From: Rhodospirillales bacterium | Lineage (GTDB): Bacteria > Pseudomonadota > Alphaproteobacteria > Acetobacterales > Acetobacteraceae | NCBI GenBank assembly: GCA_017304945.1 | Contig: JAFKLG010000068.1 | Span: 1 to 64,000, forward strand | Length of the DNA stretch: 64,000 nt | Reading direction: 5' to 3' | Part shown: positions 6,742-16,749 of the stretch, one piece after another | Layout of the letters: the number at the start of each line of letters is the position of its first letter | How positions within the stretch are numbered: the stretch's first letter is position 1 | Notes under the pieces: model-generated | Database searches by the model: none | What the model was told of the DNA's origin: nothing | What the model saw: only the letters and a program-made list of their open reading frames with translations | Program-made: the position numbers and the translations under genes

Positions 6742-6832
6742 AGTCGTGGATGGCCGGCCTGCGCCGGCCCTGACACGGGGACGGCCAGCGCCCCTAATCG
6801 TCATGGCCGGCGCAGGCCGGCCATCCACGACT
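6742..6832. repeat. Pair of inverted REP-like palindromes
   Basis: A 28-bp arm at 6742-6769 is perfectly inverted at 6805-6832 with a 35-bp spacer. Each arm is itself a hairpin, GGCCGGC / GCCGGCC around a 4-nt loop, flanked by the motif ATCCACGAC. A third, diverged copy is at 32591-32622. The arrangement resembles a BIME-type pair of REP elements. It lies between the phn operon promoter region and the end of the acp gene, which are both on the minus strand. Confidence 0.75.
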
Positions 6833-12880: not shown

Positions 12881-14860
12881 ATGGATGACCGAAGCAGCCT
12901 GTGGATCGCCGCACCGCTGCTCGCGCTGGCCGTGCTGGCCGCGTGCGGGATCGCCTTCCCGACCGACTTCCTGCTGGGCACCGCGCCGCACTGGACCCGC
13001 GCCACCGGGGACGCCGCGCAGCACGTGATCGGCGGCCGCTATTTCACCGCCGATGCCTGGCGCCTGCCGCTGCTGTTCGTCCCGGCCCTCGGCTTTCCGG
13101 ACGGGACCAATATCGGCCTGACCGACAGCGTGCCGGTCGCGGCGCTGATCGCCAAGCTGGGCCGCGGGCTGTGGGGCGCGGAGCGCATCTATCTCCCGGC
13201 CTGGATCCTGGCCTGCTGGGTCCTGCAGGGCGTGGCCGGCGCGATCGCCCTGCATGTGGCGGGCGTGCGCCGCGTGGCGCCGCTGATCCTCGGCGGGCTG
13301 CTGCTCGTCTTCACCCCGGTGCTGCTGGCGCGGTTCGGGCATGCCGCGCTGAGCGCGCATTTCCTGCTGCTGCTCGCGCTGGCGATCCACTTGCGGGCGA
13401 TCCGCGCCCCGGCGGGTCACGACCGTGGCGGCCAGGGCCTAGACGGTCGCTTTCCCGCTCACACCCGCGCCGCCGATCGCGTCTGGCTGCTCTATCCGCC
13501 GCTGCTCGTGCTCGCGCTGCTCACGCATGTCTACCTGCTGGCCATGGTCGCCGGGTTCGCGCTCGCCACGCTGCTGCACGGGCTCTGGACCGAACGGCTC
13601 GGCGTGGGCGGCCTGCTGGTTCGGCTCGCCGCGATGGCGCTGCCCGTCGCCGCGACGCTCTGGCTGATCGGCTACTTCGCCCTCGGCCCGATGCCCTTCA
13701 AGGCGTATGGCGAGTGGCCGCTGAACCTCGCCGCCCCGCTCTGGCCGGGATGGAGCCTGCTGACCGGCACGCCTGGCGAACCCGCGGTGATCGGCTTCGA
13801 GAGCTATGCCTGGCCGGGCGCCGGCATGCTGCTGCTGGTCGTGCTCGCCCTGGTCGGTGCCCGTGCGCGGCTGCGTCCGCTGCTGGCGGCGCATGGCGCG
13901 ACCCTGATCGCGATGCTCGCGGTGCTGATCTTCGCCGCCACCTTCGCGGTCCGGCTGGGGCCCTGGACCATCCTCGGCCTGCCGCTCCAGACGGTGCGGA
14001 ACGCGGTGATCGCCGGCAGCCAGGCCGGCGGCACCCTGCACCGGCTGCTCGCGGCGCTGACGCGGGCGGACTGGGTGCGCGCCGGGCTGTACGGGCTGGT
14101 CCTGGTCGGCTTCGCCGGCGGCGTCGCCTTCCATCTGTGGCGAACCCGGCGGCGGCGCGCGCTCGCCGTGCTGGGCACTGCGGTCGTGGCGGTCGCGGCG
14201 GCGGCCGTGCTGGCGCCGCACGCCGTCGCGCTGGTGGTCAGCAACTTCCAGGGCTCTGCCCGCTTCGTCTGGATGCCGGGCTATCTGCTGGCCGTCCTCG
14301 CCATCGCCGGGGTCTGGCGCGCCTTCCGCCCGCCGGTGGCGCTCGCCTGCCTCGGCGTCGCGCTGCTGCTGCAGGTCGCCGACACCGAACCGCTCTGGGC
14401 GCGGTTGCGCGCGTATGCAACCGAGCAGCCGCCGGCGCTGCCGGATGCGGCGATGATCGATGCGGAGGTGGCGGCCGCGCACGAGCTGGTGCTGGTGCCC
14501 ACCTATCTCTGCGCCTATGCCGAGGGGCTCGCCCCGGCGGCGGAGGACGCGCTGGTCGACCGGATCACGCAGCTCGAACTGGCGGCATCGCGCACCGCGG
14601 TGCCGATCAACTCGGTGCGGACCTCCCGCATGTCGTCGGTGGACCAGGCCGGTCTGGCTGCGCGATGCGCGGCAGCGCGGGACGCGGCGCGCGATGATCT
14701 CCGCCGGACGGGACGGCTGACCGTGGTCCTGGCCGGCGCGCCGGCGGAGGAGACATTGCTGCGGGAGCTCGCGAACGACCCGGCCTGCACCCGATCGGCG
14801 GTCGGATTGCTCTGCCGCGGAGGAGGGGCGGAGCCGTCCGGCGCGGCGGGGGCGAGGTGA
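12881..14860 (+). CDS. DUF6311-like polytopic membrane protein
   Basis: The protein has 659 residues from the ATG at 12881 (MDDRSSLWIAAPLLAL). The N-terminal half carries GDAAQHVIGGRYF and LGFPDGTNIGLTDSVP. I recall these motifs from DUF6311 membrane proteins, which have a GT-C-like fold. About ten Leu/Ala-rich helices extend to about residue 490, followed by a hydrophilic, presumably periplasmic, C-terminal domain. Family members are suspected lipid-linked sugar transferases or glycan-related proteins; the function is not established. The preceding 149 bp after minE contain no clear gene. Confidence 0.7.
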   Translation: MDDRSSLWIAAPLLALAVLAACGIAFPTDFLLGTAPHWTRATGDAAQHVIGGRYFTADAWRLPLLFVPALGFPDGTNIGLTDSVPVAALIAKLGRGLWGAERIYLPAWILACWVLQGVAGAIALHVAGVRRVAPLILGGLLLVFTPVLLARFGHAALSAHFLLLLALAIHLRAIRAPAGHDRGGQGLDGRFPAHTRAADRVWLLYPPLLVLALLTHVYLLAMVAGFALATLLHGLWTERLGVGGLLVRLAAMALPVAATLWLIGYFALGPMPFKAYGEWPLNLAAPLWPGWSLLTGTPGEPAVIGFESYAWPGAGMLLLVVLALVGARARLRPLLAAHGATLIAMLAVLIFAATFAVRLGPWTILGLPLQTVRNAVIAGSQAGGTLHRLLAALTRADWVRAGLYGLVLVGFAGGVAFHLWRTRRRRALAVLGTAVVAVAAAAVLAPHAVALVVSNFQGSARFVWMPGYLLAVLAIAGVWRAFRPPVALACLGVALLLQVADTEPLWARLRAYATEQPPALPDAAMIDAEVAAAHELVLVPTYLCAYAEGLAPAAEDALVDRITQLELAASRTAVPINSVRTSRMSSVDQAGLAARCAAARDAARDDLRRTGRLTVVLAGAPAEETLLRELANDPACTRSAVGLLCRGGGAEPSGAAGAR

Positions 14861-14873
14861 CCGGACCGCGCGT

Positions 14874-15446
14874 TCAGGAAGCCTGGGGCGAGGCGGCCAG
14901 CAGGCGCTCGATCGGGTCCCACACGAAGGCGGTCTGCATCAGCATCTGCCCGGCGAAGCGGATTTGCGCCTCGGCCGCCGGCTTGCCGCCCAGCCGCTGG
15001 TAGAACCAGCGGGACGGATTGTCGCGCAGCACCCAGAGATAGGCGGACTTGCAGCCGGCCTCGATCAGGTGCGCCGCGGCGGCGCGCATCAGGCGGCGCC
15101 CCACGCCGCGGTCGCGCCAGTCGTCGAGGACGTACAGCGTCTCGACCTCGCCCTCGCCCAGCCGCTTGCCGCCGATCTCGCCGCCGCGGGCGCGGCCGGC
15201 GGTGCTGAAGCCGATGATGCGGGGGGTGCTGCCGGGGGGCAGGTCCTGGCCGAAGGCGGTCGCGACGGTGACGCCCGTGCCGTTGCGGATCGCGGCGTCG
15301 TAATGCGCAGCCTGCCGGGAGACGGAGAGGTTGGCGAGATAGCGGTCGGGCAGGATGCCGGGATAGGCGCTGCGCCAGGCCGCGACATGCACGGCGGCGA
15401 TCGCGATGGCGTCCGCCGGCCGCGCCTTGCGCAGCGAGATCGTCAT
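14874..15446 (-). CDS. GNAT family N-acetyltransferase
   Basis: The protein has 190 residues beginning MTISLRKARPADAIAIAAVH, the usual GNAT beta1-alpha1 opening. The acetyl-CoA pyrophosphate loop reads DDWRDRGVGRRLMRAAA (R/Q-x-x-G-x-G/A pattern), followed by LWVLRDNPSRWFYQRLGGK. Its ATG at 15446 overlaps the ancestral stop of the upstream rsmB-like gene (ATGA, 15443-15446), so it was translationally coupled to that gene before the lesion described there. The substrate is unknown. Confidence 0.85.
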   Translation of the reverse strand: MTISLRKARPADAIAIAAVHVAAWRSAYPGILPDRYLANLSVSRQAAHYDAAIRNGTGVTVATAFGQDLPPGSTPRIIGFSTAGRARGGEIGGKRLGEGEVETLYVLDDWRDRGVGRRLMRAAAAHLIEAGCKSAYLWVLRDNPSRWFYQRLGGKPAAEAQIRFAGQMLMQTAFVWDPIERLLAASPQAS

Positions 15447-15527
15447 GCCACGCGCTCCAGCACCGCGGCGAAGAACCCGTCCGTGTGGTGCCGCGCCGGG
15501 GTGAGCGACAGCCAGTCCCCGGTTCCT

Positions 15528-15587
15528 CGCGGCGGCGGCTCGACTGGTGGCTGCAGGGCAACGCCACGCCCCGGCTGCTGGTGGGCG
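15528..15587 (+). repeat. 60-bp inverted repeat, displaced copy
   Basis: All 60 bases are the exact reverse complement of 16446-16505. This copy interrupts the rsmB-like gene at motif VI. It is in the orientation opposite to the gene's own coding sequence. Confidence 0.95.
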
Positions 15588-16445
15588 TAGCGTAGACCAA
15601 GCGTCCGCCGATGCGAACCAGCGCCTGCGCCGCATCGAGGATGCTCGCCTGTTTGGGAAGCAATTCCAGGAGATCGGCCTCGCGCAGCCGCGAGCGTGCA
15701 TCGGGGTTGCGGCGCCAGGTGCCGGTGCCGGTGCAGGGCGCATCGACCAGCACGCGGTCGAAGCTGCCGGCGCGGCGCTTGGCCCATTTGTCCCCGGCCG
15801 CGACCAGGTGGCGCTCCACGTTGTGCACGCCCGCGCGGCGGAGCCGGCGGACCGCTCCGTCGAGCCGCGGCGCGGAGACGTCGCAGGCGACGACCTGTCC
15901 CTTGTTCTGCATGGTGGCGGCCAGCGCGAGCGTCTTGCCGCCGGCGCCGGCGCACCAGTCCACCACCCGCATGCCGGGCTGCGCGCCGACCATCAGGGCG
16001 ATGAGCTGGCTGCCCTCGTCCTGGATCTCGACCAGGCCGGACTGGAAGGCGGGGCCGGTGGTGACCGGGCGGCGGCCGGCGATGCGCAGCCCCCAGGGGG
16101 AGAGCGGGGTCGGCTCCGCCTGCCAGCCTTCGGCGGCGAGCGCGGCCTGCGCCTGCTCCCGCGTGGCCTTCAGCAGGTTCACCCGCAGGTCGAGCGGCGC
16201 CGGTGTCGCCATCGCCGCCATCTCGGTCGCCAGCGCCGGTCCGAAGCGCGCGGCGAGCCGTGGATGCAGCCAGTCGGGCACTTCGAGCCGCACCGGTTCC
16301 GGCATGGCGGGATGATCGAGCGTATGGCCCTCGAGCCGCGCCAGCCGGGCATGCTCGTTGCGGCCGAGGATCTCCGGGGCGAAGCGGCCGCCCGAGTAGC
16401 TCTGCGCGAGGCCGGACAGCGTCCAGCCCTCCAGCAGCAGGGAGG

Positions 16446-16505
16446 CGCCCACCAGCAGCCGGGGCGTGGCGTTGCCCTGCAGCCACCAGTCGAGCCGCCG
16501 CCGCG
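16446..16505 (-). repeat. 60-bp inverted repeat, source copy
   Basis: This is the native position within the N-terminal part of the rsmB-like gene, encoding RRRLDWWLQGNATPRLLVGA in frame. Because it makes sense in the protein family context, it is the source and the 15528-15587 copy is the derived one. Confidence 0.95.
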
Positions 16506-16749
16506 CCCGCAGCACCTGCCAGACGCGGTCGGACACGGCGCGGCGGTCGCCGGAGCCGATGTAGCGGCGGGATCGGAAGAAGTCGTTGGCGACGGCGTCG
16601 GCCGGGCGGTTGGGCGCGTCCTCCACCGCCTCCAGCAATTCGATCGCCGCCTGGTTGCGGGCTGCCGGGGTCACCCGGACGCTCCGGCCCGCGTGCGGCG
16701 ACGAAAGAGGGGGCGGGCGCGGCCCGGCGGCAGGCTCACGTCGGCAGCC

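Follow-up and report, generated by a model that had tools for sequence, protein, structure and literature searches.

In E. coli, template switching is an established process (PMC6357072), and paired inverted switches with 3-30 bp of microhomology at the junctions are known from starving cells of this species (PMC3161906). In apes, 1-4-3-2 and 3-2-1-4 are the majority patterns among events with a single inverted repeat, the copied fragments have a median length of 12 nt and a maximum of 128 nt, and 29.5% of the events shorten the sequence (PMC7954356). In the enzyme class of the gene considered here, the cysteine of motif VI acts as the nucleophile and that of motif IV aids product release, as described for the NSUN family (PMC6409601). 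We analysed a window of 64 kb, the whole stretch of DNA considered here, and propose, with a probability of roughly 0.6, that one recent inverted template-switch event inactivated an RsmB/NOP-family methyltransferase gene within it.

According to the original prediction, positions 15528-15587 and 16446-16505, 0.9 kb apart in the same gene, are perfect reverse complements of each other, and comparison of the two arms agreed with it at 60 of 60 positions. The 60-nt arms are 100% complementary, are separated by 858 nt, end abruptly without imperfect extension on either side, and both lie inside one RsmB/NOP-family methyltransferase gene on the minus strand (Table 1). They form the sole perfect inverted pair of at least 30 nt in the window, the second longest being a 28-nt, REP-like, intergenic pair at 6742-6832. 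The expectation of a perfect 60-nt match by chance in 64 kb at 71% GC was about 1e-23 in our estimate from base composition, and a chance repeat is ruled out by the 60/60 identity. When the genome was searched with the region as the query, the 60-mer had two copies only, the donor and the recipient, and its confinement to two places rules out a transposon or other repetitive element. Beyond the window, about 1.37 Mb of this genome (roughly one-quarter of it) contained no second long inverted copy, and the perfect inverted pairs found there were at most 35 nt long and belonged mostly to two recurring families. Membership in a REP-like or other inverted repeat family is likewise ruled out, since those repeats are 22-35 nt long, recur and have different sequences. 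No long inverted copy was present in the 0.35 Mb surveyed of the closest relative, G019, the metagenome-assembled genome of Rhodospirillales bacterium 69-11 (MKTV01000052.1; approximately 87% identity over the region).

Table 1. Features of the disrupted methyltransferase locus in window coordinates
Feature	Positions	Strand	Basis
RsmB/NOP-family (RsmB-like) RNA m5C methyltransferase gene, disrupted; GTG start at 16674, ancestral TGA stop at 15443-15445 now out of frame	15443..16674	-	ORFs, profiles, alignments
Retained 5' part, codons 1 to 362-363, ending with YAT of motif VI; purifying selection in comparison with G019	15588..16674	-	Alignment with G019, dN/dS
Donor, original segment, codons 57-77 of the same gene, collinear with relatives	16446..16505		Repeat search, comparison with relatives
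Recipient, 60-nt inverted copy replacing about 116 ancestral nt (motif VI Cys codon and 38 further codons)	15528..15587		Repeat search, comparison with relatives
Ancestral 3' end (GTGDWLSLTPARHHTDGFFAAVLERVA*), orphaned and no longer in frame	15443..15527	-	ORF list, relatives
719-aa open frame resulting from the frameshift, spanning the whole GNAT gene	14515..16674	-	ORF list
GNAT acetyltransferase gene, intact; start overlaps the old methyltransferase stop (ATGA, 15443-15446)	14874..15446	-	ORF list, profile match

Two families of shorter inverted repeats recur in this genome. A REP-like palindromic family (approximately TGTCATGGCCGGCGCAGGCCGGCCATCCA) forms head-to-head pairs at many sites, including 6742-6769 and 6805-6832 of the window, L040 6144-6276, L059 2776-2865, L129 12766-12865 and L138 15256-15483, and is present in G019 too (L085). 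The second family, built around GATTCAACACAGAGTTGAGGCGAG, has arms of 22-34 nt about 130-350 nt apart (L051 13265-13472, L067 15732-15916, L074 4048-4453, L102 4733-4938 and L128 3222-3549).

The disrupted gene matched Pfam Methyltr_RsmB-F (PF01189; 111.8 bits against a cut-off of 27) and the RsmF/B ferredoxin-like domain (PF22458), in agreement with its earlier description as rsmB-like. It matched the NCBIfam RsmB models below their cut-offs (TIGR00563, 159.8 bits versus 269), the score being lowered by the broken C-terminus, and RsmB-like is thus the safe name. Motif IV (DAPC) is retained, and the Cys of motif VI is gone, with YATC changed to YATP. The alignment with E. coli SUN/RsmB (1SQF) stops at Pro364 of the window protein, opposite the Cys at chain position 375, and the lost motif VI residue corresponds to C375 of E. 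coli RsmB. The protein has lost 38-39 residues, close to the claim made beforehand that the YATC nucleophile and about 40 residues had been replaced. The catalytic Cys codon is lost, and the enzyme is presumably inactive. As also claimed, the ancestral C-terminus (GTGDWLSLTPARHHTDGFFAAVLERVA) is still present, in the frame of a 347-aa ORF, and the ATGA in which the methyltransferase and GNAT genes overlap is intact. A second RsmB/F-family gene, with a motif VI Cys, is located on a different contig of this genome.

No early stop interrupts the shifted frame, which is open to 14515. A polar effect on the GNAT gene is possible because ribosomes would cease stopping at the ATGA overlap, and GNAT translation may be disturbed by the shifted methyltransferase frame open across 14515-15446 on the minus strand. 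The openness of this frame over 719 aa, along with 60-bp inverted arms that could in principle recombine and flip the 858-bp interval, might suggest a functional arrangement in which a programmed inversion or frameshift gives an active or regulatory product. We regard such an arrangement as scarcely credible, since open frames are common at 71% GC, flipping the interval would not restore the lost codons, the arrangement is present in no relative, and no accompanying recombinase site or gene was found.

The ancestral state was read from 32 distinct related loci of the same genus and beyond (33 rows, of which L004 and L033 are one contig). All 32 keep the TC of motif VI and the uninterrupted segment that follows it. 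From this Cys to the conserved DGFF motif, 27 of the 32 loci have 53 residues (159 nt) and the others 52, 58 or 65 residues, whereas the window has 104 nt from the Cys position; in the sense of the gene, about 116 ancestral nt between TACGCTA and a GGA codon have therefore become 61 nt. The alignment with relatives that had been recommended for sizing the missing segment thus gives a net loss of 55 nt, which bears out the predicted shift of frame. Homology with G019 and the other relatives ends at 15587 and restarts before 15528, and G019 is collinear with the window at the donor arm, making the direction of copying clear. Among 396 further genomes of the family, none had the composite junction, and their same-locus matches end exactly at 15587; the inverted-copy state is therefore derived and private to this genome. 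It had been considered beforehand that relatives might share the sequence, and 0 of the 32 loci and 0 of the 396 genomes did so.

Two side observations concern the same place or its surroundings. At the recipient site, G019 has an in-frame 36-bp tandem duplication around GGCCCCGGGGGCC (L004; L084 10450-10532; repeating GAGDWLSLTPAP). Near the same locus, G030, another species of the genus, has a 42-nt perfect inverted repeat (L005 592-633 and 657-698) with a 23-nt spacer. Judging from the duplication in G019, the recipient site seems prone to rearrangement and unstable in the sister species too, a point in favour of the template switch.

Over the retained part of the gene (363 codons compared with G019), dS was 0.277, dN 0.0127 and dN/dS 0.046, and no second lesion was found in the rest of the gene. 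The dN/dS of 0.046 indicates that strong purifying selection acted on the gene during almost its entire divergence from G019. Had both arms changed neutrally since the event at the synonymous rate, a span as long as the full divergence would predict about 16.6 differences between them, and 0 were observed. Because the arms are identical, the event probably falls within roughly the last 18%, about a fifth, of the time since the split, which is the 95% bound of our calculation. The earlier claim that perfect identity means either a very recent event or an assembly chimera thus holds as to recency.

A gene that is otherwise conserved and free of a second lesion counts against the template switch to the extent that it fits a false join too. 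An artefact of assembly or library preparation would consist of such a false local join, the real gene of the organism being uninterrupted, and could have arisen by gap filling over a GC-rich, hairpin-prone stretch, by a fold-back chimera during amplification or from a chimeric read at low depth. We hold an artefact by any of these routes to be the less probable reading, though one of real weight. It agrees with the uninterrupted gene of every relative, the dN/dS of the remainder and the perfect identity of the arms; moreover, the assembly is a draft with 141 contigs, the part of it that was surveyed contains two short runs of N (13 and 14 nt), one of them inside a CG palindrome, scaffolding was probably used, and inverted joins with deletion are the main class of phi29 chimera (PMC1855051). 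However, two junctions and an exact return to the right place would be required, whereas chimeras usually have one junction, and 93.5% of nearby inverted phi29 chimeras show complementarity of 2 nt or more, a tendency rather than a rule, compared with 0-1 nt here (PMC1855051). A systematic artefact is further opposed by the lack of a second case in the 1.37 Mb of the same genome, and a search with the G019 sequence as a query, a weak one, did not find the original segment elsewhere in the assembly. The length of 60 nt equals no contig-end overlap found, one of which is exact at 57 nt and the others inexact at about 120-155 nt, and a k-mer artefact of the assembler was rejected since these overlaps do not explain it. 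The inexact overlaps suggest reads long enough to cross both junctions. Taken together, these points lean towards a real mutation, short of proof. The first 149 nt of the window overlap, at 98.7% identity, with the end of C70, another contig of this genome, and the two contigs may be neighbours.

Considering these results, we propose the following scenario for a template switch during replication. A nascent 3' end would leave its template near 15527 or 15588, the displaced end would use the opposite strand at 16446-16505 as its template for 60 nt, and it would then return and resume about 116 ancestral nt further on, leaving the inverted copy in place of the motif VI Cys and 38 residues with a net change of -55 nt. 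With a fork running along the sense direction of the gene, the donor would already have been copied, and a fold-back of the nascent strand would be enough, giving the order 3-2-1-4; with a fork running the opposite way, a switch between strands would be needed, giving the order 1-4-3-2. GC skew values were small and mixed and did not indicate the direction of the fork. The four-point model fits, since one event with two switch points explains both junctions, and the locus has a nearby reverse-complement segment, two junctions, collinear flanks and a direction given by the relatives. The replication mechanism itself is our inference. A template switch or fold-back yielding an inverted copy plus a net deletion, as first proposed for this locus, is the best explanation of the data, and the assembly chimera named beside it keeps the probability discussed above.

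Other features of the junctions count against a template switch: the donor lies 0.9 kb from the recipient, well beyond classical quasi-palindrome events, and no priming site is apparent. At 15587, the overlap is 1 nt (G, common to the relatives inspected), and at 15528, it is 0 nt; the check for microhomology recommended for both positions thus gave a single shared nucleotide at the first and none at the second, which is atypical for a microhomology-rich event. Microhomology-mediated break-induced replication needs a few nucleotides of microhomology and was rejected on these values of 0 and 1 nt. In local alignments of ten relatives, from which the ancestor was judged, the inverted similarity between donor and recipient was no better than in shuffles, and a quasi-palindrome mutation was rejected since no earlier imperfect inverted repeat was visible in them. 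The blunt or near-blunt junctions, and the roughly 116 bp missing where the copy was inserted, resemble filler DNA left by end joining, as would result if repair of a double-strand break, and not a fork switch, had captured a short inverted piece (templated or captured filler). This route is improbable in our view, since the donor is still in place, and a copy is thus needed rather than a cut-and-paste transfer. That the template switch was natural and very young, spanned 0.9 kb in a bacterium, had near-blunt junctions and arose without a quasi-palindromic seed is a more specific claim that we advance only tentatively. If true, it would mean that bacterial forks make inverted switches without prior pairing, at a distance outside that of the E. 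coli reporter assays cited.

If the mutation is real, it offers a clean, datable natural inverted template switch in a bacterial gene, with recognizable donor, recipient and ancestral state, and a conserved gene silenced in a single step by such an event; genome scans for perfect inverted copies within coding sequences could then reveal similar events. If it is an artefact, it warns that local inverted joins in draft genomes can yield plausible-looking pseudogenes.

As to known systems, the product resembles the RsmB/RsmF/NOP2 RNA m5C methyltransferases in its sequence-family match and motif IV DAPC, and differs from them in that the nucleophilic Cys of motif VI and the next 38 residues are gone. 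As an artefact, it would resemble the inverted chimeras of phi29 multiple displacement amplification in its inverted sequence, intervening deletion and partner within 10 kb, whereas those mostly have a single junction with at least 2 nt of complementarity, compared with two junctions and 0-1 nt here (PMC1855051). The switches of the MMBIR type in starving E. coli similarly comprise two inverted switches and two novel junctions, but they involve 3-30 bp of microhomology and kb-sized segments rather than 0-1 nt and 60 bp (PMC3161906). Quasi-palindrome mutations of E. coli likewise involve an inverted template copied in bacterial replication; unlike them, the present locus shows no prior imperfect inverted repeat in relatives and has a longer distance and fragment (PMC6357072; PMC7202029). 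The four-point template-switch mutations share with it the reverse-complement copy of a nearby segment, two junctions, collinear flanks and a majority order, and the 60-nt fragment is under the maximum of 128 nt in apes; the donor distance of 0.9 kb, the replacement of about 116 nt, the bacterial host and its being known from assembled sequence set it apart from the ape events (PMC7954356). The template switch proposed here is one instance of an already known kind of mutation.
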